Positions 7,381 to 36,874 of a stretch of DNA of 36,874 nt are shown here, in pieces; within the stretch, counting starts at the first letter, position 1, and the number at the start of each line of letters is the position of its first letter. The notes beneath the pieces were generated by a model. That model was not told where the DNA came from and did not search any database. It saw nothing but the letters and a program-made list of their open reading frames with translations. A program made the position numbers and the translations under genes. Origin of the DNA: an uncultured Bacteroidales bacterium (GTDB taxonomy: Bacteria > Bacteroidota > Bacteroidia > Bacteroidales > FEN-979); the NCBI GenBank assembly GCA_903915465.1, contig CAIWTA010000169.1:1-36874 (forward strand), in the 5' to 3' direction.

Positions 7381-7396
7381 TATAAAATCTGGCAAA

Positions 7397-8497
7397 ATGA
7401 AAAAGATATTATATTCGGTTATCATTTTCCTTGGCCATTTTGGGCTGATCCCCGGTACTATGGGGCAGGATCCAAATTATTCTCAGTGGTTAAATGCGCC
7501 ACTCTATTATAATCCGGCTTATGCAGGGTTGAATACTGGCCTCAGGGCCAGGTTTTCCGCAAGGGATCAATGGCCTAATTTGCAGCAGGATTTTAGAACC
7601 TACTACTTTTCTGCCGATTTTGGAAATCGTAATTTACCCGGTTCCGGTGGAATTGGATTGCTTGTCAACAAAGACAATGAAGGAGTCAGCTTTATCAAGG
7701 ATCTGTCGATTGGGATAGCATTATCTGTAAGGATCCCCCTCGCTTCAAATATCATCGCGCAGGTTGGTATTAAAGGTTCTCTGGTGCAGAAATGGCTGAT
7801 GTGGAATAATCTTGTGTTCAGCGATCAATTGAATCCGAAATATGGAAATATTTATTCTGCTGCAGTGACTCCTCCGGATGACCAGCAACGGATGTTCCCC
7901 GACTTTGGCGTAGGTGGTCTTGTACAGTTCGTCAATAAAGAAGGCAATGTTTCCGGAACTGCCGGGTTTGCCGTTGATCATATTTTTCAGCCTGACGAAT
8001 CCTTTCTTTCCATAGCCAAATCACCACTTCCAAGGAAATATGTAGGGCATCTTGATTTTGTTATTTCAATGGGAAACGGACCTTCTTCCAGCCAGAATCC
8101 TATGCGTGGTTTTGGGGATGCACTAAAAATAAATCCAGGGATCATTTATCAGAATCAGCATAATATGAGTTCGATTCAGGTTGGATTAAATATGCTGAAA
8201 TACAATTTCTACCTGGGAGGGTATTTTAAGGCATCTTCCTATAGCAATGGCACAACCTCCCTGATGCTGCTGGCAGGGTACCGGTACATGATAGCAGGAG
8301 ATATCAGTCTTAAATTTATGTACAGCTATGATATACAGATTTCAAAGAACCTGCAGGGCACGGGCGGAGCGCACGAAATAAGCCTGATCCTGGAATTTAA
8401 AAGCCTTCGGTTGCTTGGGAAAAAACGTTATGAAGCATGTCCTGCGATAGATGAACCGGATCTGAAAGTATCTTCATTGGAATGCAGCCCGTTTTAA
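7397..8497 (+). CDS. PorP/SprF-family T9SS outer-membrane protein
   Basis: 366 residues beginning 16 bases after the adhesin stop. A signal peptide ends near residue 24 (GTMGQ). It is followed directly by the family hallmark DPNYSQWLNAPLYYNPAYAG, and the rest alternates short amphipathic strands and turns, as in an outer-membrane beta-barrel. PorP/SprF proteins (TIGR03519-type) work with type B sorting-domain cargo; in Flavobacterium johnsoniae SprF is needed for surface display of the adhesin SprB. The adjacent type B adhesin is therefore its probable client (inference from pairing). Genome-wide there are usually several paralogs, so I do not assign the name porP or sprF. The core T9SS machinery is not in this window. 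Confidence 0.9.
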   Translation: MKKILYSVIIFLGHFGLIPGTMGQDPNYSQWLNAPLYYNPAYAGLNTGLRARFSARDQWPNLQQDFRTYYFSADFGNRNLPGSGGIGLLVNKDNEGVSFIKDLSIGIALSVRIPLASNIIAQVGIKGSLVQKWLMWNNLVFSDQLNPKYGNIYSAAVTPPDDQQRMFPDFGVGGLVQFVNKEGNVSGTAGFAVDHIFQPDESFLSIAKSPLPRKYVGHLDFVISMGNGPSSSQNPMRGFGDALKINPGIIYQNQHNMSSIQVGLNMLKYNFYLGGYFKASSYSNGTTSLMLLAGYRYMIAGDISLKFMYSYDIQISKNLQGTGGAHEISLILEFKSLRLLGKKRYEACPAIDEPDLKVSSLECSPF

Positions 8498-13210: not shown

Positions 13211-16200
13211 TTATGGGTGCTGTTCAATCGAAGTATCAACAATTTCTTGTCTTTCCTTTTTGCTTGACATGAGAACATACATGGAAGGAATGACAAAAAG
13301 AGTAAGAACCAGTGAGAACAGCAATCCACCCACTACTACGATGCCTAAAGGAACGCGGCTCGATGCACCTGCTCCCAATGCAAGGGCGATGGGCAAAGCG
13401 CCAAAAACCGTTGCCAGGGAAGTCATCAAAATGGGCCTAAGTCGTGCAGCAGCGGCTTCAAATGCAGCTTCAGCCTTGTTTAGCCCGGCTTTCCGTTTCT
13501 GATTTGCAAATTCCACAATCAGGATGCCATTCTTCGTTACAATACCGATCAACAGGATCATCCCGATCTCTGAAAAAATATTCAATGTTTGTCCGGTCAT
13601 CCAAAGTGAAAGTATAGCTCCTGCAATTGCCAGGGGAACTGTGAGCATGATGATGAAAGGATCACGGAAACTCTCGAATTGTGCGGCCAGGATAAGATAA
13701 ATGAGCAGTAAAGCAAGGATGAGAGCAAAAGATGTATTAGAACTGCTTTCTGCAAAATCCCTTGAAGGGCCAAACAACGAGGTCTGAAAAGTGTCATCCA
13801 GTACTTTTTTTGCAATTTTTTGCATTTCGGTAATACCTTCACCTAAAGTACGGCCGGGGGCAAGAGAAGCTGAAACAGTGGCTGATTTATACCGGTTGAA
13901 ATGATACAACGTCGGAGGACTACTGTTTTCCTCTATCCTGATCAGGTTGTCGAGCTGGATCATCTGGCCGCTTCTGCTTCTGACATAAAGGGAGGAAATA
14001 TCGGCAGGGGAACTGCGGGATTGCCGTTCAACCTGTCCGATAACATAATATTGTTTTCCGTTCCGGAGGAAATAGTCATACCTTCGTCCGCTTAAGGCGA
14101 ATTGCAAGGTGTTTGAAATATCAAGGACATTGACACCAAGATTCGTAGCCTTCAGGCGATCGACCGTGAGGTTCAGTTCAGGTTTGTTGAATTTCAGGTT
14201 CACATCGACATTTCCGAAGACAGAATCCTTTCGCGCTTCCTCCAGGAATTTCGGAAGGAAAAGTTGCAACTTCTCAAACTCGAGATTCTGTAAGACAAAC
14301 TGTACAGGTAACTGGGATCCGGAGGAAAGGGAAGTGGAGATGGTTTGTTCCTGGTTAGGAATGATCCTTGCTTCCGGGAAACGCTTGTACATTTTGGTAA
14401 GCTTGTCATAAATCTGTTGCTGCGTGGCTTTCCGTTCGTTGGGTTGCGTGAGAAATGTCGTAATTGAACCTGTATTGGTAGCGCTGCTTCCTGAGCCTCC
14501 TCCGGAGGAGATTCTGCCAAAAATTAACCGAGCTTCAGGAAAGCTGTCCATTTCTGCCTGGCAGATGCGATGGATGAGATTGGAAGTACGATCAAAATCT
14601 GTTCCTTCGGGAGTCGTTACATTGGCACGGATGATACTATGGTCTTCCAAAGGCGCCAGTTCTGTTTTCAATGTCTTTCCAATGAAAAATATCAGGAAAA
14701 GGCATATCCCAAGAATGAGAAAAGATGCCCATCTGCGATCCATAAAGAACTTAAGAAGACGACGGTAACCCTTATCCAGGTTCACAAAGAAAGGTTCAGT
14801 TAAATTATAAAATTTTGAATGCCTGGAAAGTATTCCCCCCAGTTTGATATTCAGAACAGGCGTCAAAGTGAGCGAGACAAAAGCGGAAATCAACACCGAA
14901 CCCGCCACAACGATTCCAAATTCCCGGAACAACCTTCCGGTGAATCCCTGTAAAAAAATCACCGGGATAAATACGATTGCAAGCGTAAGAGAAGTGGAGA
15001 TCACCGCAAAGAAAATTTCACGCGTTCCGGCAAATGCCGCCTTCCACCGATCCATCCCCAATTCGATCTTTTTAAATATGTTTTCCGTGACCACGATACC
15101 GTCATCAACCACAAGCCCCGTAGCCAGGACAATTCCAAGCAAGGTTAAAACATTCACGGAGAACCCGAAAATATACATGATAAAGAAAGAACCGATCAGG
15201 GATACCGGAATATCAATCAATGGGCGTAAGGCGATAATCCAGTTCCGGAAGAAGAGAAATACGATCAATACAACTAAAGAAATGGCGATAGCCAGGGTTT
15301 CCGTAACATCACTGACGGATTGTCTGACAAATTTCGACTTGTCAAAACCTACGTCAATAATTAACCCGGCCGGGATCATCTTTTTTATTTCGTTAAACCG
15401 TTTGTAAAACTCATCGGCAATCTGGATTGCATTGGCTCCGGGTAATGGGATCAGCGCCAGGGTGATCCCGTCAGCCCCATTCAGCTCGACTCCGGTTTCT
15501 TCATTTTCCGGACCTAGCATAGCTTCACCAATATCGCTGAAACGTACCATCTGATCGTTGGTCTGGATGATTATGATGTTGTTAAAATCTTCTTCTGTAA
15601 CCAATCTGCCGTTTGTTTTAACAATCATCTCCGTCGATTTTCCCCTGACCTTTCCACTAGGGAGATCGACATTTTCTTTGATCAGGGCGGTATTGATATC
15701 TTCAGGTGTAACATTGTATGCTGCCATCTTTTCAGGGTTCAGCCAGAGTCGCATGGCGGGTCGTCTTTGTCCGTACAAACCAACGGAACTGACCCCTGGT
15801 ATCGTTTGTAATTTCTCCTGAAGGACATTTTCTGCATAGTCACTTAGCTGAAGCGGGTTCATCGTGGTGCTTTGAACCGACAATGTTATGATCGGGTCGG
15901 AATTGGCATCCGCTTTGGTAACCACCGGGGGAGCATCAATGTCCTGCGGCAGGCTTCGCGCAGCCTGTGAAGTTTTATCACGGACATCGTTAGCAGATTT
16001 CTCAAGATCAGCGCCCACATTGAACTCAACAGTGATGTTACTGCTGCCAATTGCCGAAGATGATGAAATCGATTTAACGCCCTCAATGCCGTTGATCGCT
16101 TTTTCTAAGGGTTCCGTAATCTGGGATTCAATGATATCAGCGTTTGCGCCGGTATAACTAGTCTGAACATTGATGGTTGGCGGGTCAATGGCAGGATAGA

Positions 16201-16309
16201 GCCGGACTCCCAGGAAAGAGTAGCCGACAGCACCAAAAACCACGATAATCAGACTCATCACGATGGAAGTAACGGGACGTTTTATCGCAATATCGGATAA
16301 TGAAGCCAT
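13211..16309 (-). CDS. RND multidrug efflux permease, AcrB/HAE1 type (system 1)
   Basis: 1032 residues, the normal length of HAE1 pumps. The N terminus (SDIAIKRPVTSIVMSLIIVV, then LYPAIDPPTINVQTSYTGA) is typical. The TM4 proton-relay pair is present (VDDGIVV, Asp402-Asp403), as is the TM10 Lys (GIVTKNGILIVEFA). Twelve transmembrane segments and two large periplasmic loops can be drawn. It exports hydrophobic or amphiphilic compounds using the proton gradient; substrate is not predictable. Its ATG is 2 bases after the stop of the fusion-protein gene and its stop is 13 bases before the channel start, so the three are one operon. Confidence 0.95.
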   Translation of the reverse strand: MASLSDIAIKRPVTSIVMSLIIVVFGAVGYSFLGVRLYPAIDPPTINVQTSYTGANADIIESQITEPLEKAINGIEGVKSISSSSAIGSSNITVEFNVGADLEKSANDVRDKTSQAARSLPQDIDAPPVVTKADANSDPIITLSVQSTTMNPLQLSDYAENVLQEKLQTIPGVSSVGLYGQRRPAMRLWLNPEKMAAYNVTPEDINTALIKENVDLPSGKVRGKSTEMIVKTNGRLVTEEDFNNIIIIQTNDQMVRFSDIGEAMLGPENEETGVELNGADGITLALIPLPGANAIQIADEFYKRFNEIKKMIPAGLIIDVGFDKSKFVRQSVSDVTETLAIAISLVVLIVFLFFRNWIIALRPLIDIPVSLIGSFFIMYIFGFSVNVLTLLGIVLATGLVVDDGIVVTENIFKKIELGMDRWKAAFAGTREIFFAVISTSLTLAIVFIPVIFLQGFTGRLFREFGIVVAGSVLISAFVSLTLTPVLNIKLGGILSRHSKFYNLTEPFFVNLDKGYRRLLKFFMDRRWASFLILGICLFLIFFIGKTLKTELAPLEDHSIIRANVTTPEGTDFDRTSNLIHRICQAEMDSFPEARLIFGRISSGGGSGSSATNTGSITTFLTQPNERKATQQQIYDKLTKMYKRFPEARIIPNQEQTISTSLSSGSQLPVQFVLQNLEFEKLQLFLPKFLEEARKDSVFGNVDVNLKFNKPELNLTVDRLKATNLGVNVLDISNTLQFALSGRRYDYFLRNGKQYYVIGQVERQSRSSPADISSLYVRSRSGQMIQLDNLIRIEENSSPPTLYHFNRYKSATVSASLAPGRTLGEGITEMQKIAKKVLDDTFQTSLFGPSRDFAESSSNTSFALILALLLIYLILAAQFESFRDPFIIMLTVPLAIAGAILSLWMTGQTLNIFSEIGMILLIGIVTKNGILIVEFANQKRKAGLNKAEAAFEAAAARLRPILMTSLATVFGALPIALALGAGASSRVPLGIVVVGGLLFSLVLTLFVIPSMYVLMSSKKERQEIVDTSIEQHP

Positions 16310-24344: not shown

Positions 24345-24968
24345 CTAAGTGAGGGATGCTTTATACTTTGTAAAATTCTTGTTAAAAAATATCAATCCTT
24401 TGGCACTTAGAATGCCATGTAGGTGATAAACAAATAGTTCGTGAAATACCTGGAAAGAAATCAGCTCCTCTATCGAAAAAAGATCATTTTCAGTCAGATT
24501 CTCAACCCGAAATACATGCAATTTTGCTATGATGTTTGTATTCAACTCTTTTCTGTATAACCCTTCTTTCTTTCCCTTATTCAGATTGGTAAGAAAAGAT
24601 TCAAACATGTTTTTCCGGCGAATGTCCCTGATAGATGTGAACAGATCAGGGTAATACTTGCGGATATCATATTCCATAGATGGGTTATAATCGCGGAATC
24701 TTTTATGGATCAGGTTGTAAACTTCAAGCAACTCCTCCACAGCATTAAGGTTTCTCGACAGGATTTCACTGTGTATCTTACTTTGGATATCATTCTCAAG
24801 AAACACAATTGACCTTACCAGGTCTTCTTTATCTTTAAAATGCTTGTAAAGGGTTTTTTTTGAAATGCAGAGATGTTGAGCAACATCATCCATAGTAACG
24901 CTTTTGATCCCATAACGCCCGTATAACTTTCTGACTTGTTCAAGGATATGTGGGGTTTTCGTCTCCAT
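24345..24968 (-). CDS. TetR-family regulator 1, divergent from efflux system 2
   Basis: 207 residues from ATG 24968 (METKTPHI...); the frame opens at 24995, but the later start follows a TATCTTTG box directly. The helix-turn-helix is at the N terminus (SVTMDDVAQHLCISKKTLYKHF). The ligand domain has a motif RFRDYNPSMEYDIRKYYPD and later NLNKGKKEGLYRKELN, both shared with the second TetR at 30988. TetR proteins usually repress neighbouring genes until a ligand binds. The divergent fusion-protein/pump genes and the inverted repeat between them make those the probable targets. Confidence 0.9.
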   Translation of the reverse strand: METKTPHILEQVRKLYGRYGIKSVTMDDVAQHLCISKKTLYKHFKDKEDLVRSIVFLENDIQSKIHSEILSRNLNAVEELLEVYNLIHKRFRDYNPSMEYDIRKYYPDLFTSIRDIRRKNMFESFLTNLNKGKKEGLYRKELNTNIIAKLHVFRVENLTENDLFSIEELISFQVFHELFVYHLHGILSAKGLIFFNKNFTKYKASLT

Positions 24969-24972
24969 GTCA

Positions 24973-24980
24973 CAAAGATA
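24973..24980 (-). promoter_or_regulatory. -7 box TATCTTTG, possibly giving a leaderless tetR transcript
   Basis: The minus-strand TATCTTTG ends only 4 bases before ATG 24968. With normal spacing transcription would start at or next to the A of the ATG. If real, the message is leaderless and the 24995 start is excluded. Confidence 0.35.
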
Positions 24981-24993
24981 CTCAAAATGAAAC

Positions 24994-25028
24994 AACGGAA
25001 ACTTTCATCCGTTAAAAGTTTTTCCGTT
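24994..25028. promoter_or_regulatory. Candidate TetR operator: AACGGA/TCCGTT inverted repeat plus third half-site
   Basis: AACGGA (24994-24999) and TCCGTT (25008-25013) form an inverted repeat with an 8-base spacer; another TCCGTT lies at 25023-25028, 15 bases on. The broader halves also mirror each other (ACGGAAACTTT against AAAGTTTTTCCGT). The site lies between the divergent tetR and efflux -7 boxes, covering the expected -33 regions of both, which is where a repressor of both would bind. Confidence 0.55.
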
Positions 25029-25041
25029 CTGACAAAATATT

Positions 25042-25049
25042 TATCTTTG
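25042..25049 (+). promoter_or_regulatory. -7 box TATCTTTG for efflux system 2
   Basis: TATCTTTG fits TAnnTTTG, 48 bases before the ATG at 25098 and just downstream of the TCCGTT half-sites. The -33 position is only a weak match (TTTCCG), as is common for regulated promoters. Confidence 0.5.
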
Positions 25050-25097
25050 CGGTTATTTAGAAAAAACATTCGAATCATTAGATTTAAGCGATTGAAT

Positions 25098-26210
25098 ATG
25101 AAAAAACTATTTTTCTTCCTTGGAATTTTAACCTTGGTTTTAGCTTGCAGTAGCCCGGATAAAAAAGCACAACTTGAAAAGCTAAAGAAAGAGCATGATA
25201 AAATCGCAATACAAATATCTAATTTGGAAAAAGAATTGTATCCTGCTGGTAATAAAACCATTACAAATGTAAGCGCTGAATCTTTATCGAAACGTACTTT
25301 TGACCACTTTATCGAAGTTCAGGGGCGAATCGATGGAAATGAAAATATTGCTGTCAGCCCTCGTTCTCCGGGAGTTGTGTTAAAAATATTGGTCAAAGAA
25401 GGAGATTTTGTCAGAAGAGGTCAACTTCTTGCTGAGCTTGATGCGGATGTTGCCAAGCAGAATCTGAAAGACCTTCAAACCCAGTTGGCATTTGTCACCG
25501 ATATGTTTGAAAGGCAAAAGGCATTATGGGATCAAAAAATAGGATCGGAAGCACAGTTCCTGGATATGAAAAACAAAAAGGAATCGGTGGAAAATAAAAT
25601 TGCGGCACTGAAGGAGCAGATCAATATGTCGAGTATTACTTCCCCGATAGATGGTACCATTGAAGATATTCCAATTAAGGTTGGCCAGATGGCTTCCGCT
25701 ACAAGTCCTCAACCCGCCTTCCGCGTGATCAATTTTACCCGTGCAAAAGCCGTTGCAGACGTTGGCGAAGCATATAGTTCCAAAATCAATACCGGGGATC
25801 AGGTAAAGATTTTTTTACCTGATTACAATGAAGAGATACAGCAAAGAGTAACTTTTGCAAGTAAATTCATCAACCCGACTAACCGTACGTTTAATGTAGA
25901 AATTGAAATTCCTTCCAACAATAAAATCTTTCGTGCCAATATGATCGCTGTGATCCGGATCAAGGATTATTCAAATCCATCAACCATTGCCATTCCGCAG
26001 AATTTTATCCAATCATCAAAGGATGAAGGGTTGTATGTGTTCATTGCAAAAGAAGAAAACGGAAACAAAATTGCCCGGAAAGCTTTTATCAAAACGGGTG
26101 TAACTTATAACGGCCTTACAGAAGTCACAAATGGATTAGATGCGGGTGACAAAATCATAACAGCCGGATATAAAGACCTTTATGATGGCCAGAGTATCGA
26201 ATACAAATAA
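25098..26210 (+). CDS. RND membrane-fusion lipoprotein (system 2)
   Basis: 370 residues from ATG 25098; the upstream part of the open frame back to 24936 lies across the promoter region and lacks a signal peptide. MKKLFFFLGILTLVLAC is a lipoprotein signal with Cys17 lipidated. Residues 20-48 are a charged coiled coil (KKAQLEKLKKEHDKIAIQIS) before the first barrel-sandwich half (VSPRSPGVVLKILVKEGDFV), then a helical hairpin, the second half (SSITSPIDGTIEDIPIKVGQM) and the beta-barrel and membrane-proximal parts. It links the pump to an outer-membrane channel. The pump ATG is 9 bases after its stop. Confidence 0.93.
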   Translation: MKKLFFFLGILTLVLACSSPDKKAQLEKLKKEHDKIAIQISNLEKELYPAGNKTITNVSAESLSKRTFDHFIEVQGRIDGNENIAVSPRSPGVVLKILVKEGDFVRRGQLLAELDADVAKQNLKDLQTQLAFVTDMFERQKALWDQKIGSEAQFLDMKNKKESVENKIAALKEQINMSSITSPIDGTIEDIPIKVGQMASATSPQPAFRVINFTRAKAVADVGEAYSSKINTGDQVKIFLPDYNEEIQQRVTFASKFINPTNRTFNVEIEIPSNNKIFRANMIAVIRIKDYSNPSTIAIPQNFIQSSKDEGLYVFIAKEENGNKIARKAFIKTGVTYNGLTEVTNGLDAGDKIITAGYKDLYDGQSIEYK

Positions 26211-26219
26211 GTATTGACG

Positions 26220-29200
26220 ATGAAAGAAAAAAAACAGAAGTTTAAAGAATTTTTTGCAACCAGCTGGTCGATTGATAACCGTGCCTCTATCTATGTTCTG
26301 ACTATCATCATCACCATGCTTGGTTTACTTTCCTTCCTAAGCATTCCTAAAGAACAGTTTCCCGAAATCGTCATTCCTACAATTATCGTCAGTACACCTT
26401 ATCCTGGAACGTCGCCGGAAGACATGGAAAACCTTGTCACACGTCCCATTGAAAAGGAACTGAAAGCACTTGCTGATGTAAAGAAAATCACGAGTAAATC
26501 AATACAGGATTATTCCGCAATTGTAGTGGAATTCAATCCCGGGATTGCTGTTGCTGAAGCCAAACAACGAGTGAGGGATGCCGTTGACAAATCCAAACCA
26601 AATCTCCCAAGTGATATTCCGAAAGAACCGGATATCAAAGAAATTGACCTTTCTGAAATCCCAATAATGTTCATTAACATTTCAGGGGATTATGACCTTC
26701 AACGGTTGAAGAAATTTGCCGACGATACAAAGGACAGGATTGAAACCTTTAAGGAAATTACCCGGGTTGACATTGTAGGAGCCCTCGACAGGGAGATACA
26801 GGTGGATGCTGACATGTATAAGATGCAATCAGCCAGTGTCACTTTTTCCGACCTGGAAAGGGCCATAGCCAGTGAGAATATAACAATTTCAGCAGGGAAC
26901 ATTACAAGTTTTGGGTCAAAACGATCGATTCGGATAACAGGACAATTTAAGAACCCCGATGAGATCAAGAATATCATGATTAAATCGTCGAGCGGAGCAA
27001 TCGTTTATATACGGGATATTGCTGATGTAAAAGACGCTTTCAAAGAACAGGAAAGTTTTGCCCGTTTCAATGGAAAAAATGTGATCACGCTGAACGTCGT
27101 CAAAAAAAGCGGTGAAAACCTGCTTAATGCTTCTGATGAGATTAAGGGACTGATCGCTGATTTGAAAAAAAACTCCTTTCCTCCTGATCTCATAGTTGAT
27201 ATCACCGGCGACCAGTCAAAATTCACACGGAGTACACTCGAAGAGCTGAACAACACTGAAATCATTGGATTTGTCTTGGTGACATTGGTATTGATGTTTT
27301 TCATGGGCTTCAACAATGCATTCTTTGTAGGACTTTCTGTACCTCTTTCCATGTTCGTCGCCTATATGATCATGCCCGGTTTGGGTTTTACGATGAACAT
27401 GATTGTAATGTTTGGTTTCATCTTTGCATTGGGTATTATTGTGGATGATGCGATTGTTGTTATCGAAAACACGCACCGAATACACCGCGACGAACCGGAT
27501 ATTGTGAAAGCCGCTAAACATGCGGCTGGCGAAGTATTTTTACCCATCTTATCAGGAACATTGACGACACTTGCTCCGTTTTTCCCATTGGCTTTCTGGC
27601 CAGGAATTGTCGGAAAATTCATGCACTACCTGCCAGTCACATTAATTCTGACACTTTTTGCATCACTTTTTGTTGCCTATATCATCAATCCGGTTTTTGC
27701 AGTTACATTTATGCAACATGAATACGATAAAAAGAGTCATAAGGTAAATACGAAGAGTCTGCTGGTTGCGAGCGTAATCCTGTTTACCCTGGCACTCATT
27801 TTTTATATCGGTGGGTCGTTTGGGATGGGAAACCTGCTTGTTTTTTGCCTGATCATTAATGCCATTTACCGGTTATGGCTGAAAGAAATTACTGTTAAGT
27901 TCCAGAATGTGTGGTGGCCGAAGCTAATGGATATTTACGAAAAAAGCCTGAGGTTCTTTCTGAAAAATAGAAACCCCTATTACCTTTTGGGTTTTGTTGT
28001 GGCACTCTTTTTCCTTTCCCTCTTTTTACTTGGTGTAGCAAAACCCAAGGTTTTGTTTTTTCCCAACAATGACCCAGGCAGTGTCTATGTTTATGTTAAA
28101 ATGCCTGAAGGTACCGATCAAACGGTTACTGATTCCGTTACAAAGCTGGTAGAAAGCAGGATATCAGAGGCCATTGGAAAGAACAACCCTTTGGTGGAGT
28201 CGATAGTTACAAATGTGGGGTTTGGCGCCGGCGAAGGTATCTTCGACAGAACAGCCGCCTCAAACAAAGGTAAACTTACCATCAATTTCGTTGAAAGCAG
28301 GTACAGGAAGGGCCAGAAAACTAATGATTACATGGACAAAATGCGTGAAAAGTTAATGGATGTTCCCGGGGCCCAGATTAGCGTAGAAAAGAACAAAATG
28401 GGACCGCCCACCGGAAAACCAGTCAACATTGAAGTTACAGGTGAAAATCTTGACGAACTGATTATCACCGCTAATACATTTAAACATTACCTGGATTCAT
28501 TGCGCATTCCCGGGATTGAAAAACTCAAATCAGATTTTGAAAACAATAAACCTGAGATCATCGTTAATATCGACCGTGTCAGAGCCAATCGGGAAGGTCT
28601 TTCCATTGGACAGATCGGGATGGAACTCCGTACGGGCATTTATGGGAAAGAGGTTTCAAAATATAAGGAAGATGAAGATGAATACCCGATTGAATTAAGG
28701 TATTCAGAAGAACAAAGGAAAAATGTTGATAAAGTGATTAATGCAAAGATCACATACCGGGACATGAACTCCGGCGTCCTGAGGCAAATTCCGATTTCAT
28801 CTGTTGCTAAAATTGGATATAAAGATACCTATGGTGGTATTAACCGGAAGAATTCAAAACGGATAATTACTATTTCCTCAGAAGTCCTTTCAGGCTATAC
28901 AGCAAATGAAGTTGTCGCCTCCATTACACAAGCAGTAAAAGGGTTTAGAGTACCAAAAGGAATTGATATTAACCTGACCGGAGAACGGGAAGATCAGGCA
29001 GAAACAATGAATTTCCTTACAAAAGCCATGTTGATAGCGATCGGTCTGATCTTTTTTATCCTTATCACCCAATTCGGTTCTGTAAGTAAGTCGCTCATCA
29101 TCCTGAGTGAAGTAATCTTTAGCATCATCGGGGTGTTTTTCGGAATTGTGATCTTCAATATGTCCATCTCAATCATCATGACCGGACTTGGTATCGTTGC

Positions 29201-29597
29201 TCTTGGGGGAATTGTTGTCAGAAATGGAATCCTTATCGTTGAATTCTGTGATGTCCTCAAGGAAAGAGGATTAAAAACCAGAGATGCAATCATTCAGGCA
29301 GGAAAAGTAAGAATCACTCCGGTAATTCTGACTGCAACAGCCACTATGCTGGGCCTTGTACCTTTGGCTGTCGGGATGAATATTAATTTTATTACAATGT
29401 TCACAGAATTAAACCCGCATATTTATTTTGGTGGCGACAATGTATTATTCTGGGGACCTCTTTCTTGGACCATCATCTTTGGATTAGCCTTTTCCACCTT
29501 CCTGACACTGATATTCGTTCCGGCGTTATACCTTATCGACTACCAGATCAAGACCAAATTCAAAAGAAGAAAATCGTTAAGGAAAATTCACGGATAG
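26220..29597 (+). CDS. RND efflux permease, enlarged form (system 2)
   Basis: 1125 residues from ATG 26220; the TTG at 26214 is an unlikely alternative. It has the RND plan: TM1 at about 24-42, TM4 with Asp409-Asp410 (GIIVDDAIVVIEN), two periplasmic domains, and TM10 with GGIVVRNGILIVEF. It is about 90 residues longer than the system 1 pump. Two hydrophobic segments at about 513-531 and 537-554 add to the usual twelve, and the TM11-TM12 loop (about 1052-1080, NFITMFTELNPHIYF...) is long. The residue aligned with AcrB Lys940 is Arg1001 (codon AGA). The substrate is unknown. It pairs with the fusion protein just upstream and, by position, with the convergent TolC gene. Confidence 0.93.
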   Translation: MKEKKQKFKEFFATSWSIDNRASIYVLTIIITMLGLLSFLSIPKEQFPEIVIPTIIVSTPYPGTSPEDMENLVTRPIEKELKALADVKKITSKSIQDYSAIVVEFNPGIAVAEAKQRVRDAVDKSKPNLPSDIPKEPDIKEIDLSEIPIMFINISGDYDLQRLKKFADDTKDRIETFKEITRVDIVGALDREIQVDADMYKMQSASVTFSDLERAIASENITISAGNITSFGSKRSIRITGQFKNPDEIKNIMIKSSSGAIVYIRDIADVKDAFKEQESFARFNGKNVITLNVVKKSGENLLNASDEIKGLIADLKKNSFPPDLIVDITGDQSKFTRSTLEELNNTEIIGFVLVTLVLMFFMGFNNAFFVGLSVPLSMFVAYMIMPGLGFTMNMIVMFGFIFALGIIVDDAIVVIENTHRIHRDEPDIVKAAKHAAGEVFLPILSGTLTTLAPFFPLAFWPGIVGKFMHYLPVTLILTLFASLFVAYIINPVFAVTFMQHEYDKKSHKVNTKSLLVASVILFTLALIFYIGGSFGMGNLLVFCLIINAIYRLWLKEITVKFQNVWWPKLMDIYEKSLRFFLKNRNPYYLLGFVVALFFLSLFLLGVAKPKVLFFPNNDPGSVYVYVKMPEGTDQTVTDSVTKLVESRISEAIGKNNPLVESIVTNVGFGAGEGIFDRTAASNKGKLTINFVESRYRKGQKTNDYMDKMREKLMDVPGAQISVEKNKMGPPTGKPVNIEVTGENLDELIITANTFKHYLDSLRIPGIEKLKSDFENNKPEIIVNIDRVRANREGLSIGQIGMELRTGIYGKEVSKYKEDEDEYPIELRYSEEQRKNVDKVINAKITYRDMNSGVLRQIPISSVAKIGYKDTYGGINRKNSKRIITISSEVLSGYTANEVVASITQAVKGFRVPKGIDINLTGEREDQAETMNFLTKAMLIAIGLIFFILITQFGSVSKSLIILSEVIFSIIGVFFGIVIFNMSISIIMTGLGIVALGGIVVRNGILIVEFCDVLKERGLKTRDAIIQAGKVRITPVILTATATMLGLVPLAVGMNINFITMFTELNPHIYFGGDNVLFWGPLSWTIIFGLAFSTFLTLIFVPALYLIDYQIKTKFKRRKSLRKIHG

Positions 29598-29617
29598 AAA
29601 TTCAACTCATCAACTCG

Positions 29618-30961
29618 TCAGACTTTCTCTAGCAACTTGTTGAGCTGTATTTTCAGGTTAACAACGTTGAACATTGTCAGCAAATAATCGCTCTCAGACT
29701 GGAGAAATTGATTGTATTTTTGATTCAGATCTGTACTTCCTGCTACTCCTTCTTTGTATTTGTTGATGGTTTTCAGGTAGATCTTTGTCGCAACTTCCAA
29801 CCCTTTTTTCTTGTTCAGGAACACCAGGTAAGCATTGTTAAAATCACTTCTTGCAGAAGCCACCTGGAGTTCAAGCCCGGTTTTCATCTTTTCATCATTC
29901 ACTTTCATTTTCTGAACCTGCAGATAAGCCTGATCAACTGTATATTTTCTGCTTCCGCTGCTCCAAATAGGAACAGTTACAGTCATTCCCCAGTTAAGTG
30001 TTTTAAACCAGGATTGATTGGCAGCAAAGAAATTCCACGCATTTCGCTGCGCATTGTCGCTGAATCCCATGAATGCAGAAAGACTAGGCTGATAGGCGGT
30101 TTTGGAAAGTTTATATTGCATTTTGACAAGATATTCCTGTTTCTTGAATACTGAATAATCAATATTAAAATTATAGTCAAACTGTTGTTTCATCAGATAA
30201 TCTCTTCCTAAAGTATTGATAAAACCACGGAGGCTGTCGGTAAGCAGAATCTGCTGGTTTTCCTTTAGTCCCAAGACAAATTTCAACCGGGCAGTGCTGA
30301 TCTCGAGCTGGCTGTTTGTATTGATCAAACGCGCTTCCAGGTCGGATTTATTGAGTTCCAGCTGGTCTACTTCAATATCTTCTACAAGACCTAATTTGAA
30401 TGTTTCCTCGAGCTCTTTTACCATCTGGTTGATCACTTTATATGTAGAATCCAGGATTTTTGTCTGTTCCTGATACAACAGAACCACCAGGTAACTGTTT
30501 TCAACCTGATCTCGAATATCAATTTTTACTTTTACGTTTTTTTGACGCTCTGTCTCCAGAAATGCTTTTGCAGTCTGCAAACCAACAAGATACTGTCCAC
30601 TATACAAGAGCTGATCAATCCGTCCCCGCATAGTCAAATTGTAGCGTGTCCCAAATTGTATTTCAATATCTGTGCCTGGTTTGCCAATAAATTCACCTGG
30701 AATTAATGATGTAGGACGAGCAAAATATTCCATATAATCTATACCGCCATTTACCTGTGGGAGCCCTATTGCGGTATTCTGCCTGACTTGTTTTTGCGCT
30801 ATCTGCACATCATAAGCAGCGTTCTTCAGGTCATAATTATTCTCATATGCATAATCCTGTGCCTGTTTTAAAGAAAATGCCAACGGAACTTGTCCATGTA
30901 ATTGAAAAGAAAAAAAACAGCAGGTAGAAAGAATCGATAGCAGAAGCGCATTTAGTTTCAT
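29618..30961 (-). CDS. TolC-family outer-membrane efflux channel (system 2)
   Basis: 447 residues. A signal peptide is clear (LLLSILSTCCFFSFQLHGQ, about 23 residues), followed by FSLKQAQDYAYENNYDLKNA and the duplicated helical pattern of OEP proteins (TFKLGLVEDIEVDQLELNKS in the first half, INKYKEGVAGSTDLNQKYNQ in the second). It is encoded opposite to the pump and ends 20 bases from the pump stop. It follows a TetR gene by 26 bases and is probably co-transcribed with it. It most likely completes the system 2 efflux complex, though the separate promoter would let it serve other pumps. Confidence 0.9.
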   Translation of the reverse strand: MKLNALLLSILSTCCFFSFQLHGQVPLAFSLKQAQDYAYENNYDLKNAAYDVQIAQKQVRQNTAIGLPQVNGGIDYMEYFARPTSLIPGEFIGKPGTDIEIQFGTRYNLTMRGRIDQLLYSGQYLVGLQTAKAFLETERQKNVKVKIDIRDQVENSYLVVLLYQEQTKILDSTYKVINQMVKELEETFKLGLVEDIEVDQLELNKSDLEARLINTNSQLEISTARLKFVLGLKENQQILLTDSLRGFINTLGRDYLMKQQFDYNFNIDYSVFKKQEYLVKMQYKLSKTAYQPSLSAFMGFSDNAQRNAWNFFAANQSWFKTLNWGMTVTVPIWSSGSRKYTVDQAYLQVQKMKVNDEKMKTGLELQVASARSDFNNAYLVFLNKKKGLEVATKIYLKTINKYKEGVAGSTDLNQKYNQFLQSESDYLLTMFNVVNLKIQLNKLLEKV

Positions 30962-30987
30962 GAGTAAATTTATTTTGAAAGATCAAA

Positions 30988-31614
30988 TTAATTATAATTC
31001 CCAAAGTTCAATTTTTGTTTTTGTTGTTCATAATAACTGATACCAGACTCATTGGCGATACCACGAATAAAATTATCGAACATGACGTCAAAAAGCGTCT
31101 GAAATGAGAATTTGTCAGCAGGGAAAAATTCAGGATTGTGCAGGTCAATTAATCTACGGATGTATAGTCTCGCCAACAGTTCTGTGCTGAGATCGTCACG
31201 ATAAACTCCTTGTTTAATGCCCTTGTCAAGATTGATCTTAATCTTCCCGAAAATGAATTCAATTCTTTCGTTGACATGTGCATGATAAACATCAGGATAA
31301 TACTTTTTAAGGTCAAAAGTCATCGAAGGGCTTACATCCCTGAAGCGCCCACCAAGTTCTTTACTTACAATCAACAGAATATCGATGGCATTTACACCAT
31401 CAAAATTATTGGTGTCAAAGATGATCTCAAAGTTCTGCCTCTCAAGTTCCAGCAATTTTTCAACCAACTCATTTTTACTGGGAAAAAACTGATAAAGCTT
31501 TTTCTTTGAGATATTGATATCTCTACAGAGATCATCCATCGAAACACTTCGAACCCCATATTTATAAAAGAGCTCACGAACTCGTTCAAGGATATTGACT
31601 TGCATTTTATCCAT
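30988..31614 (-). CDS. TetR-family regulator 2, upstream of tolC
   Basis: 208 residues from ATG 31614 (MDKMQVNILERV; ATG 31605 is an alternative). The N-terminal helix-turn-helix (SVSMDDLCRDINISKKKLYQFF) and the ligand domain (RFRDVSPSMTFDLKKYYPD; NLDKGIKQGVYRDDLSTELL) align closely with TetR 1 along the whole length, so the two are paralogs. It heads an operon with the TolC gene and probably regulates that operon, the pump operon or both. The TCCGTT half-sites seen at 24994-25028 were not found upstream of this gene. Confidence 0.9.
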   Translation of the reverse strand: MDKMQVNILERVRELFYKYGVRSVSMDDLCRDINISKKKLYQFFPSKNELVEKLLELERQNFEIIFDTNNFDGVNAIDILLIVSKELGGRFRDVSPSMTFDLKKYYPDVYHAHVNERIEFIFGKIKINLDKGIKQGVYRDDLSTELLARLYIRRLIDLHNPEFFPADKFSFQTLFDVMFDNFIRGIANESGISYYEQQKQKLNFGNYN

Positions 31615-33456: not shown

Positions 33457-33464
33457 TAAGTTTG
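33457..33464 (+). promoter_or_regulatory. -7 box TAAGTTTG for the M14 peptidase gene
   Basis: TAAGTTTG fits TAnnTTTG and ends 21 bases before ATG 33486. A TTTG lies at 33440-33443, but the 13-base spacing is too short for a standard pair. The box overlaps the TTG codon at 33462, arguing against that codon as the start. Confidence 0.4.
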
Positions 33465-33485
33465 GGCTTTCTTATTGGATATGAT

Positions 33486-35267
33486 ATGCGATTAATCCTT
33501 CAGGTTCTTTTTCTTATATCTGTTTTTTCGGGATCCTCACAAGACAGTATTTGGATGACTTTCTATGAAAAGTCGGACTTTAAAAAAACGCCCCGGTATA
33601 AAGAAACTATTGAGTATTGCAGGGAGTTAGCTTCAGCATCCTCTTTGATTAAATTAAAATCATTTGGGGAAAGTGCCCAGGGAAGGAAGCTTCCACTGAT
33701 GATCGTAGATAAACAAGGGTATTCGGAACCGGAGGAGATCAGGGCAGCAGGAAGGGTTGTTTTACTGATTCAGGCATGTATCCATCCGGGTGAATCGGAA
33801 GGCAAAGATGCTGGATTGATGCTGATCCGGGACCTGGTCCTTAGGAATAAATATCCAGGACTTCTTGACCATGTTTCCATTCTTTTTATTCCAATTTTTA
33901 ATACAGATGGCCATGAACGGTTTGGCTCGTTTAACAGAATAAATCAGAATGGTCCTGAAGAAATGGGCTGGCGGGTTACTGCAACGAACCTCAATCTCAA
34001 CCGTGATTATTTAAAAGCAGACACTCCGGAGATGCAGAACTGGTTAAGGATGTTTAGCAAATGGCTTCCGGAGTTTTTTATCGACACACATACCACTGAT
34101 GGAGCCGATTACCAGTATATTCTTACCTATTATATGAACACGACCGGAGGGATGGACGAAAATCTGAGTTCCTGGGCCAAGGATGTTTTTTTAAAAAGCT
34201 GGTCTTCCGGAATGGAACGTGGAGGAATTCCTGTTTTTCCGTACATTGAATTCCGCTCCTGGCATGATCCGAAAAGCGGGATCGATGGCGGTGTTTCTCC
34301 TCCAATGCTTTCTCAGGGATATACCTCACTTCGAAACAGACCCGGGTTATTGGTGGAAACCCATATGTTGAAAACTTACAAGCAAAGGGTTTCTGCAACG
34401 TACGAATGCTTTGTCACTTCTTTACGCATTCTGAATAAGGAGTACAGGAATCTGCAAGACCTGGAGCGTAAAGCCGACACGTTTTCATCAAGTTCCGGTT
34501 TCCGGCAAACTGCGTTTCCTCTTGAATATAAAGTCATTTATAATGATAGCACACTTGTTGATTTTCTGGGAATCCGGTACACCAGGGTCAAGAGCGAGAT
34601 CACCGGGGATAATTGGTACAAATATGGAAAAGAAAAGGAAACAATGAAGATTCCATACTTTGAGAAAACCCAGGTTGAAAATGCGGTGAAACTTCCGGAA
34701 GCTTATATTGTACCTGCAGAATGGAGAAATGTTATCGAACGCCTGAAGATTCATGGAATCAGGATATCCCGTTTAACAAAAGACACACTGCTAAAGGTTT
34801 CAACTTATCGTTTTTCAAATCCTAAATGGCAATCCTCTCCTTATGAAGGCAGACACCCATTGACCGATTTTGACATTGAAGAAATTACAGATGAAAGGAT
34901 CTTTTCAGCTGGCTCTGCCTTGATTGACCTAGATCAGCCTTCGTCAAGAATTATTGCCCACATCCTTGAACCAAAAGGGAATGGATCATACGTGTACTGG
35001 GGGTTTTTTGACGCAATTTTCGAGCAAAAAGAATATGCCGAAAATTATGTGATGGAAGAACTGGCGAAAAAAATGTTGTCAGAAAATCACGGACTGAAAG
35101 ATGAATTTGAAAAGAAAAAACGACAGGATGTATCGTTTGCAGGTAATTCAGATGCCATCCTGAATTGGTTTTTCTCGAAAACTCCCTACTGGGACGCGCG
35201 AAAAGATCTTTATCCGATAGGTAAGATAATGGACAGGAAAACCGTTGAAGAATTACTCAAAAAGTAA
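33486..35267 (+). CDS. M14-family zinc carboxypeptidase-like protein, exported
   Basis: 593 residues from ATG 33486, chosen because it gives a signal peptide (MRLILQVLFLISVFSGSSQ) and follows the promoter box. Zinc ligands are His100 and Glu103 (IHPGES) and His202 (FIDTHTTDG). NLNRDY (about 170-175) supplies the substrate-binding Asn-Arg pair and Glu291 in LLVETHML fits the catalytic Glu. M14 enzymes remove C-terminal residues from peptides or act on cell-wall peptides; which is not decided here. About 250 residues after the catalytic domain form an uncharacterised C-terminal region. There is no T9SS sorting domain, so it is probably periplasmic. Its last 11 bases overlap the end of the convergent nifS-selD gene. 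Confidence 0.87.
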   Translation: MRLILQVLFLISVFSGSSQDSIWMTFYEKSDFKKTPRYKETIEYCRELASASSLIKLKSFGESAQGRKLPLMIVDKQGYSEPEEIRAAGRVVLLIQACIHPGESEGKDAGLMLIRDLVLRNKYPGLLDHVSILFIPIFNTDGHERFGSFNRINQNGPEEMGWRVTATNLNLNRDYLKADTPEMQNWLRMFSKWLPEFFIDTHTTDGADYQYILTYYMNTTGGMDENLSSWAKDVFLKSWSSGMERGGIPVFPYIEFRSWHDPKSGIDGGVSPPMLSQGYTSLRNRPGLLVETHMLKTYKQRVSATYECFVTSLRILNKEYRNLQDLERKADTFSSSSGFRQTAFPLEYKVIYNDSTLVDFLGIRYTRVKSEITGDNWYKYGKEKETMKIPYFEKTQVENAVKLPEAYIVPAEWRNVIERLKIHGIRISRLTKDTLLKVSTYRFSNPKWQSSPYEGRHPLTDFDIEEITDERIFSAGSALIDLDQPSSRIIAHILEPKGNGSYVYWGFFDAIFEQKEYAENYVMEELAKKMLSENHGLKDEFEKKKRQDVSFAGNSDAILNWFFSKTPYWDARKDLYPIGKIMDRKTVEELLKK

Positions 35268-36874
35268 TTTTTCTTTTGATTCGGATGATTGGCTTTTCTT
35301 CAACAAAATGTCCTATCAATGCTGCTTCGGTTACACCTGCTCCATGCAGTTCTGCCAACAGTTTCCTGGCATAATCCTGGGGAACAGAAATCAGCAACCC
35401 TCCGGAAGTCTGGGCATCAGCAAGGATTATTCTTGTAATTGCCGGAATCCCAGAATCCCAATCTGCAATGTCTTCAACAGACTGAAGATTACTTAACGTT
35501 CCTCCCGGTACTATATTTGCAACTGCAAGGTCACATACACCCGGCAAAACCGGGATATTTTCCATGCCAATGCAGGCACCAACACCGCTCCCTTTTACCA
35601 TCTCTTTCAAGTGTCCAAGAAGACCGAAGCCTGTCACATCTGTGCAGGAATTGACTGTAAAACGAGTCATAATTTCAGCAGCTGTTTTGTTGAGCTGTTC
35701 CATGATACTGATCATCCTGGTTTTGTTCTCATCATTTACCATACCACGTTTTATTCCCGTGGAAAGGATTCCGGTACCAATGGGTTTAGTCAATAGAAGT
35801 ACATCTCCGGGTTTTGCATTTGAATTTGTCAGGATTTTATCGGGATGAATACGACCTGTGACAACCAATCCGAATTTTGGCTCTGTATCTTCAATTGAAT
35901 GACCACCAATTATGGAAATTCCGGCTTCAGCAACTTTATCAGAGGCACCTTTGATGATGAGTTGTAAAACCTCCAAGGGAAGGAGATTGATTGGAAAGCC
36001 AACGATACTGAGTGCAAATAGCGGGGTTCCTCCCATAGCGTATATATCACTCAGCGAATTTGCGGCTGCAATTGCTCCGAAATGATATGGATGGTCAACA
36101 ATCGGAGGAATGAAGTCAACGGTCTGAACAATGGCTGTTCGATCATCGATCTTATAAACCGCAGCATCATCGGAAGTGCCAAAGCTAACCAACACATTTC
36201 GATCTGATGTGGCTGGGATATCCTTAAGCAATTGTTCCAGGATCTGGGGACGAATTTTGCAGGCACAGCCCAAACCGTGCGTATAGTGTGTGAGCTTAAT
36301 TTCAGATGAAACCCTTTTGGGTTCATTTTGAGCAGCTGTTCCAGCTGACAGCTTTTTATACGCTGTAGCGATCAGAACAGCAGCTTTTTCAATTTCATCA
36401 GAAGTTGTCATCCTTCCCAATGAAAAACGGATTGTCCCCCTTGCATAATATTCCGGGACTCCCATTGCTTTCAGCACAGGAGAAGTTGAAATGCTTCCGG
36501 CATGACAGGCTGAACCGGCTGAGGCAGCAATATATGCCATATTATCAAGCAGAAGATTGGCTTCAGCACCTGGAAAACTGATGTTTAAGGTATTTGGAAG
36601 TCGTTTATCGGATGGCCCATTTAGTCTAATTTCCGGAAAATCAAACAAGAGGGTAGTAAATAACTGATCTCTCAATTCTTTTATACTTATTTTCCTGGCC
36701 AGAACACCATCCTCATTTTCAACACTATCAAAATCCCTGATAAAAATCTCTGTTAATTCTGCTGCTTTTCCAAGCCCCACGATGGATGCAACATTTTCTG
36801 TACCTGCCCTTAAATTTTGTTCATGATCGGCTCCATGAATCAGTTTTTCCAGAACGATACCTCTGCGAATATAC
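35257..36874 (-). CDS. selD: NifS-like cysteine desulfurase / SelD fusion, 5' end missing
   Basis: The frame runs off the window at 36874, so the start is missing; about 539 residues are visible. The GTG at 36780 is internal: the frame continues upstream with LIHGADHEQNLRAGTENVAS, a typical cysteine desulfurase segment. The NifS part continues to about 36330 and includes the active-site loop ASAGSACHAGS and the LKAMG region. After a linker of about 25 residues, SelD begins at LTHYTHGLGCACKIRP; the catalytic position is Cys (GCACK), not selenocysteine. ATP/phosphate-binding segments (SDDAAVYKI, VQTVDFIPPIV, NSLSDIYAMGG, GGHSIEDTEPKFG, TDVTGFGLLGH, ADAQTSGGLL) are all present, so SelD is complete. 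NifS-like enzymes release Se from selenocysteine and SelD converts selenide to selenophosphate for Sec-tRNA or 2-selenouridine. Fusion would join the two steps. Confidence 0.9.
   Translation of the reverse strand, partial: YIRRGIVLEKLIHGADHEQNLRAGTENVASIVGLGKAAELTEIFIRDFDSVENEDGVLARKISIKELRDQLFTTLLFDFPEIRLNGPSDKRLPNTLNISFPGAEANLLLDNMAYIAASAGSACHAGSISTSPVLKAMGVPEYYARGTIRFSLGRMTTSDEIEKAAVLIATAYKKLSAGTAAQNEPKRVSSEIKLTHYTHGLGCACKIRPQILEQLLKDIPATSDRNVLVSFGTSDDAAVYKIDDRTAIVQTVDFIPPIVDHPYHFGAIAAANSLSDIYAMGGTPLFALSIVGFPINLLPLEVLQLIIKGASDKVAEAGISIIGGHSIEDTEPKFGLVVTGRIHPDKILTNSNAKPGDVLLLTKPIGTGILSTGIKRGMVNDENKTRMISIMEQLNKTAAEIMTRFTVNSCTDVTGFGLLGHLKEMVKGSGVGACIGMENIPVLPGVCDLAVANIVPGGTLSNLQSVEDIADWDSGIPAITRIILADAQTSGGLLISVPQDYARKLLAELHGAGVTEAALIGHFVEEKPIIRIKRKITF

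Follow-up and report, generated by a model that had tools for sequence, protein, structure and literature searches.

A NifS–SelD fusion gene at a contig end of an uncultured Bacteroidales bacterium, and its probable role in selenium supply for tRNA 2-selenouridine

We analysed a 36,874-nucleotide stretch of DNA, hereafter called the window, which is the whole of contig CAIWTA010000169.1 (C169) of an uncultured Bacteroidales bacterium (assembly GCA_903915465.1; 329 contigs, 4.07 Mb, 98.95% complete). At the end of the window, the minus strand carries one open frame of 538 codons (35257-36873), in which a NifS-like cysteine desulfurase domain runs into a selenophosphate synthetase (SelD) domain, and the 5′ end of which is lost past the contig end. 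The gene is composed as follows.

35257..36873, minus strand: NifS::SelD fusion gene, from the open frame with NCBIfam and Pfam matches; 5′ end cut by the contig end
36370..36873, minus strand: C-terminal part of the NifS-like domain (group I, aminotransferase class V), residues 1-168, from TIGR03402 and Aminotran_5
36505..36507, minus strand: codon of the NifS-domain active-site Cys (in ASAGSACHAGS), then the His codon of the selenocysteine-lyase-like signature, from alignment to IscS and PMC3266270
36307..36369, minus strand: linker of about 20 residues between the domains, the gap between the family matches
35257..36306, minus strand: SelD domain, complete, including the stop codon, from TIGR00476
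36256..36267, minus strand: SelD catalytic motif C-A-C-K, Cys type, no UGA, read in frame and by alignment

The two domains are matched by curated families within this one frame. Positions 209-366 of TIGR03402 (NifS) correspond to residues 1-168 (E 4.5e-42, NCBIfam), and positions 1-309 of 311 of TIGR00476 (SelD) to residues 193-500 (393.6 bits against a cut-off of 125); a Pfam search agrees on both domains. Since both families lie in a single frame, and since the 80 best homologues span the junction in a single open reading frame each, chance is excluded and the in-frame fusion in the window is confirmed. An earlier note, made from the letters of the window alone, had described the C-terminal part of a NifS-like enzyme joined by a short linker to a complete SelD with an intact GCACK site, and this description is borne out throughout, the SelD being of the Cys type. 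The motifs RAGTENVAS, ASAGSACHAGS and GCACK all lie within the frame. From established knowledge of SelD, we take the C-A-C-K motif to be catalytic.

A second version of the fusion is present on another contig of the same assembly, C181 (4948 bases). Here, a complete NifS-like domain (TIGR03402, 474 bits; Aminotran_5, 270.2 bits) continues in frame into SelD, of which the first 56 positions are present. In the window's own copy, the N-terminal half lies beyond the window, and this half is visible only on C181; the missing start, which the earlier note suggested seeking beyond the contig, was thereby found on a diverged version. Neither version has a stop or frameshift between the domains, which the note had named as grounds for abandoning the fusion. 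The two versions are 84% identical in DNA over 744 bases and have the same in-frame junction, and 196 of the 246 overlapping residues are identical (dN 0.116, dS 0.507, dN/dS about 0.23), showing purifying selection on the stretch common to both, namely the C-terminal part of NifS and the N-terminus of SelD. The catalytic motifs are intact in both domains, with the lysine motif that binds pyridoxal phosphate (PLP) present on the C181 version and in homologues. Directly upstream of the fusion on C181 stands selU/mnmH (TIGR03167, 336.8 bits), the selU stop and the fusion start overlapping by 20 bases.

How are the two versions related? Because the assembly holds a single SelD C-terminus and a single NifS N-terminus of this type, we lean towards an unresolved bubble, in which C169 and C181 are two strain versions of one locus. 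The identical stretches at the contig ends (121 bases at the window end, 48 bases at the C181 end) are expected of such a bubble. The versions could also be two paralogous genes of one cell, and the window copy may then differ in its upstream neighbour. An identity of 84% is low for strains of one species, and the purifying selection on the common stretch agrees with two working genes; the single termini and the identical contig ends speak against them, and we hold paralogy to be a serious minority possibility.

What is selenium used for in this genome? The earlier note had left the downstream use of selenophosphate open, and a genome search for selA, selB, selC and selU largely settles it for this genome. 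SelU was found by profile search, its gene standing upstream of the fusion on C181, and no selenocysteine (Sec) machinery was found: SelA gave no match at E 1e-20, SelB gave nothing above the cut-off (the best match, a 399-residue, EF-Tu-sized frame, scored 181 against 242 bits), and the best tRNA-Sec match reached 46.6 bits against a cut-off of 47 and is called tRNA-Ser by ARAGORN. The tRNA-Sec search covered 11 genomes, of which 8 pass the cut-off, none of those from the window's class. The note had also considered a full-length selD elsewhere with a degenerate copy here; outside C169, no SelD in this genome exceeds the family cut-off of 125 (the C181 piece scores 50.7 bits, and others 57.6 and 28.7). 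The 2-selenouridine of tRNA is thus the sole SelD-dependent use found, the selenium-dependent molybdenum hydroxylase trait not having been searched, and the fusion seems to serve bacteria using selenium only to decorate tRNA. The genome also encodes SufS (C98; TIGR01979, 589.6 against 475.1 bits) and a separate IscS-subfamily desulfurase (C58; 348.4 against 304 bits), so that the NifS domain of the fusion need not serve Fe–S assembly.

When 84,980 species genomes were scanned with the junction region as the query, 356 relatives were found. The best 80 of the 356 all cover the junction, each with a single open reading frame that matches both the NifS and SelD domains. By label, these 80 span 12 phyla: 47 are from Bacteroidota, 9 from Zixibacteria, 3 each from Calditrichota and Myxococcota, 2 each from Cloacimonadota and Krumholzibacteriota, and one each from six further phyla, while 8 have no phylum label, among them four KSB1. 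These best 80 lean towards the window's kin, and the search patterns include GCACK or HGADHEQN, so that Sec-type fusions may escape. The earlier note believed such fusions to be rare. This does not hold in general: the architecture was in the literature by 2008, and such fusions are frequent enough among uncultured members of Bacteroidota, Zixibacteria, KSB1 and Calditrichota to take up all of the best 80 places. Yet just 3 of the 295 genomes in the window's class have the fusion; 170 of the 295 have some match at E 1e-30, the non-fusion ones being SelD-only among the matches listed. A clear fusion is present in 21 of 132 Zixibacteria genomes, a count that leaves out three whose pieces are truncated at contig ends (G354, G384 and G434).

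In a NifS tree that took in 42 of the 84 fused sequences, the fused domains group apart from 22 other NifS proteins with a Shimodaira–Hasegawa-like approximate likelihood ratio (SH-aLRT) support of 100, and five stand-alone proteins nest inside them. The SelD half was therefore probably lost several times. These five stand-alone members (L178-L182) share the residues Pro/Ala/His with the fusions (see below); four of their genomes have a UGA-containing SelD elsewhere, and in the fifth (G458) no SelD is matched at E 1e-30. For the SelD half, the approximately unbiased test of a single origin gave p-AU 0.514, and a single origin is neither rejected nor shown. The SelD tree omitted 11 of the 27 class loci with a stand-alone SelD (L021-L047), L056 and L095 were lost to the motif filter, and C_L044 (branch 10, probably a wrong frame) and F_L108 (shortened) were removed before the test.

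Next, we considered the surroundings of the fusion. Of the 40 Bacteroidota loci that have 1150 bases or more of upstream sequence, 25 show selU upstream on the same strand, and 23 show it within 150 bases. Outside Bacteroidota, this was found at 1 of 27 loci, namely in an Alphaproteobacteria-labelled metagenome-assembled genome (MAG; L095/G312). The neighbours of its selU–fusion locus equal those of the Bacteroidales locus L096, and mislabelling or a mixed bin is probable. Over all loci, selU adjoins the fusion in 26 of 83; any other adjacent gene cluster does so in at most 7 of 83, and in one lineage bar single loci, and a generic short-chain dehydrogenase, whose cluster is found at 15 of the 83 loci, is for the most part not next to the fusion. 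In three Zixibacteria loci (L089, L110 and L112), a gene for an NAD-dependent deacylase (Sir2) directly follows the fusion.

The selenium traits were compared in a panel of 53 genomes, comprising the window's genome (G000), two further genomes of its class that carry the fusion, and those of 50 of the 80 loci, picked by hand to include all 33 non-Bacteroidota by label and 17 of the 47 Bacteroidota. Two of the genomes (G172 and G277) were counted as Bacteroidota by inference from type IX secretion domains and nearest genes, and absences in the panel are to be read with the fact that MAGs can lack genes. Above the cut-offs, SelU is present in 23 genomes, SelA in 33, SelB in 29 and SelD in all 53. 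All 20 Bacteroidota have SelU: 15 are SelU-only, their one SelD being the fusion; in the other 5, which have Sec machinery, the fusion is accompanied by a second, stand-alone Cys-type SelD in 4 and is alone in 1. The Alphaproteobacteria-labelled genome is SelU-only. In the other 32 genomes, SelA or SelB is present in 29, and in 22 a SelD stands alone and has a UGA in frame.

Some genomes thus hold two SelDs, and in several of these the genes are divided by pathway. In G328, G331 and G337, the stand-alone selD shares a contig with selC-selA-selB and with a small gene of some 204 codons, and selU and the fusion are on another. The 204-codon gene is yedF in G328, the only one tested (TIGR03527, 184.3 against 110 bits), and looks similar in G331 and G337. 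At the loci L228, L229 and L230, from three Sec-bearing Bacteroidales, a YedF-like gene (by TIGR03527 at L228) separates selB from the stand-alone selD, the motif of which is CSAK instead of CACK. In the complete Zixibacteria chromosome G322, a span of no more than 6 kb holds selC, a Sec-type selD, selA and selB, and the fusion is about 1 Mb off. In an earlier study, selD was noted in operons with ybbB or selB, rarely with both (PMC2432076). In the literature within our reach, which did not extend to supplements and subscription papers, we did not meet a genome with two pathway-split SelDs, one of them fused; a search on two SelD genes found nothing on bacteria.

In genomes with a second, Sec-containing SelD, such as those of Zixibacteria and others, the Cys-type fusion could alternatively be a starter or recycling enzyme, which would make selenophosphate while the Sec-type SelD cannot yet be made. 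We regard this as a tentative alternative. A UGA-containing stand-alone SelD accompanies the fusion in 14 of the 21 clear Zixibacteria fusion genomes (one more has a motif-less SelD fragment), the UGA stands at the catalytic Cys position in 16 of the 16 Sec-type SelDs read, and the placement of the G322 Sec-type SelD beside the Sec genes, far from the fusion, also agrees with a starter. Against it, most SelD-bearing Zixibacteria have the Sec type without a clear fusion, several NifS halves persist without the SelD half, and the explanation does not extend to the window's genome, in which we found no Sec trait. In a further complete chromosome, G316, which also holds a Sec-type stand-alone SelD, the fusion (L108:7317-8951, 544 residues) has an early-ending SelD half, which is probably decaying while the NifS half is kept.

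The NifS half was then compared with characterised desulfurases and lyases. The Cys and Lys of the SelD motif GCACK and the Cys of the NifS active-site loop are each conserved in 84 of 84 aligned sequences, and the PLP-binding lysine of GHK in 83 of 83 readable rows; this lysine is present on the C181 version and falls outside the window's partial copy. The C181 version is below the equivalog cut-offs of TIGR03402 (474 against 530.75) and TIGR02006 (408.5 against 643.2), as is the fusion L119 (504.8 and 439.9, respectively), and a stand-alone Zixibacteria NifS control, L186, passes TIGR03402 with 558.1 bits. Collins and colleagues reported that D146, V256 and H389 distinguish human selenocysteine lyase (SCLY), D146 being decisive (PMC3266270); our register for these positions comes from the IscS alignment and the primer sequences in the same paper. 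At position 256, the fusions have Ala, neither Val nor Ser/Thr, in all 83 readable rows, and at position 389 they have His in 84 of 84. In 20 control sequences (stand-alone Zixibacteria NifS), position 389 is Thr in 17 and Ser in 3, and position 256 is Ser in 8 and Thr in 3 of the 11 readable. Dividing the bit score against solved selenocysteine lyase by that against Escherichia coli IscS, we obtained ratios of 0.69, 0.67 and 0.72 with three fused domains; two controls gave 0.58 and 0.52. As far as sequence can indicate, the residues at 256 and 389 and these ratios lean towards selenium.

We propose that the gene encodes a two-domain enzyme, in which a NifS-type desulfurase/selenocysteine lyase is joined to a Cys-type SelD, and which feeds SelU in the window's genome; we put the probability of this reading at roughly three in four. 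In the proposed mechanism, the PLP enzyme of the NifS half would take selenium from L-selenocysteine or another small selenium donor and hold it on its loop Cys as a sulfoselenide. The selenium would then be handed across the flexible linker to the mobile SelD Cys, selenophosphate would be made, and SelU would use it to swap sulfur for selenium at the tRNA wobble uridine. Catalysis by the two domains, the hand-over, and a preference for selenium over sulfur, if there is one, are our inferences. A predicted model of the homologue L051, built from a 35-row alignment, has a mean predicted local distance difference test score (pLDDT) of 87.4 and a predicted template modelling score (pTM) of 0.58, and its segments under pLDDT 50 are residues 225-236, 322-327 (the NifS Cys loop), 379-388 (the linker), 400-405 (the SelD Cys motif) and the end. 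In this model, the two apparently mobile Cys loops, about 80 residues apart, and the flexible linker would fit a hand-over of bound selenium. The direct hand-over suggested in the earlier note is a natural idea already in print for separate enzymes, in that a mobile loop was proposed to pass selenide to selenophosphate synthetase (PMC3266270); for the fusion itself, it is our extrapolation. In Trypanosoma brucei, the separate enzymes bind via the N-terminal region of selenophosphate synthetase (PMC7595633), which is the SelD end where the fusion joins.

Several observations weigh against this proposal, or against parts of it. The selU linkage of the window's own copy depends on whether C181 and the window are versions of a single locus. 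In 30 of the 32 non-Bacteroidota panel genomes, with the Alphaproteobacteria-labelled one counted apart, the fusion is present and SelU is missing; the idea of a SelU enzyme wherever the fusion occurs was rejected on this ground. Among the seven panel genomes with both traits, a clean split of fusion–selU from selD–Sec is seen in 3 and not in 4: the stand-alone selD of G341 is apart from selA/selB, the fusion is the only SelD in G338 and G306, and the fusion, selU and Sec-type selD of G311 each lie on a different contig. With its pTM, the L051 model does not place the two domains in any fixed contact. Among solved structures, the NifS domain is matched best by IscS-type desulfurases (324 bits against 222 for selenocysteine lyase), and the broad IscS-subfamily model NF002806 is barely passed (C181 305.2 and L119 309.3 against 304). 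Position 146 is Pro in all 82 readable fusions of 84, and the Asp of SCLY is absent. The active cysteine desulfurase NifS of Azotobacter vinelandii presumably also has Pro there. In the 20 controls, this residue is His in 11, Gln in 5, and Lys, Asp, Arg and Pro in one each, and the IscS-subfamily protein on C58 has Asp; because the residue varies in this way, an argument about selenium specificity from position 146 is weakened.

The IscS-type matches, together with the action of SelU on 2-thiouridine tRNAs (PMC9105526), would also suit a NifS half that is mainly a sulfur donor for the 2-thiouridine substrate of SelU and for other uses, with the tie to SelD serving co-regulation. We consider this unlikely: the fused partner is SelD, not a thiolation protein, the fusion occurs in many genomes without SelU, positions 256 and 389 differ from those of ordinary NifS in every readable fusion, and the window's genome has SufS and an IscS-subfamily desulfurase elsewhere. 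An assembly chimera or frameshift artefact, which the position of the gene at a contig end might suggest, is ruled out by the same junction in both assembly versions and in 80 of 80 best homologues from other assemblies.

Among the other genes of the window, an M14 carboxypeptidase-like gene (33462-35267, TTG start, 601 residues) is convergent with the fusion and overlaps its 3′ end by 11 bases. Two AcrB-type efflux pumps are encoded at 13214-16309 and 24936-31614, the latter accompanied by an HlyD-type adaptor, an outer-membrane efflux protein and a TetR regulator. At 3832-8494, a 1182-residue PKD/CHU_C protein lies beside a PorP/SprF type IX secretion membrane protein.

How reactive selenide is delivered to SelD without leaking is an open question, and a natural one-chain enzyme makes the question testable. 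In a broader reading, which we offer as doubtful, the clade would be a bacterial selenocysteine lyase of SCLY-like character, marked by Pro/Ala/His at the three positions, fused to SelD, dedicated to selU in Bacteroidota and forming one of two insulated selenophosphate supplies in some cells. The fusion would then be a closed Sec-to-selenophosphate enzyme, with NifS::SelD supplying selenouridine and the YedF/SelD pair supplying selenocysteine. The two-SelD genomes bear on whether selenophosphate supplies for tRNA and for protein are separate. The Pro/Ala/His signature would identify a second type of selenocysteine lyase in bacteria, provided that the NifS half favours selenium.

Finally, we compare the fusion with known systems. 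Among selenium-supplying PLP enzymes of the same superfamily, SclA has its own family model (NF040779), which the fusions match far below the cut-off (123.1 and 151.7 against 525 bits), so that it is not the NifS family of the fusion. A 2021 study by Johnstone, to go by its title, reportedly concerns the selenium-over-sulfur specificity of a bacterial lyase. Like the fusions, SCLY is a group-I NifS-like enzyme with His at 389 and without Ser/Thr at 256; unlike them, it is a stand-alone protein with Asp146, whereas the fusion has Pro and is nearer IscS in overall sequence (PMC3266270). A 2019 review gives no bacterial SCLY homologue (PMC6770646). The window fusion belongs to an architecture that is already known, with NifS–SelD fusions in print in 2008, 2014 and 2015 (PMC2398784, PMC3916229 and PMC4561486). 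In the fusions of Zhang 2008 (PMC2398784) and Mariotti 2015 (PMC4561486), the NifS-like domain is likewise N-terminal to SelD in one chain; the latter paper has two prokaryotic cases, one of the Cys type, plus Acanthamoeba and Naegleria. The named published case, from Geobacter FRC-32, has CxxU, in contrast to the Cys type of the window fusion. The same 2015 paper reports Sec machinery in all genomes with extended selenophosphate synthetase genes, whereas none was found in the window's genome. The fusion of Spironucleus salmonicida and Caldithrix abyssi (PMC3916229) also combines NifS-like and SelD domains in one protein, but is tied to Sec synthesis, and the window-type fusion instead stands beside selU; one member of the present set, L064, is from a genome labelled Caldithrix sp. 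Ndh-SelD fusions (PMC2398784) similarly place an N-terminal partner on a Cys-type SelD, although that partner is an NADH dehydrogenase-like protein rather than a PLP enzyme. The selD-ybbB (selU) operons (PMC2432076) have selD beside selU, as here, but their SelD is apparently without an attached selenium-supplying domain. Beyond these published accounts, as far as their accessible parts extend, the present analysis adds the wide spread of the fusion in uncultured lineages, its coupling to selU, its occurrence in genomes without Sec machinery, and the two SelDs split by pathway in some genomes.

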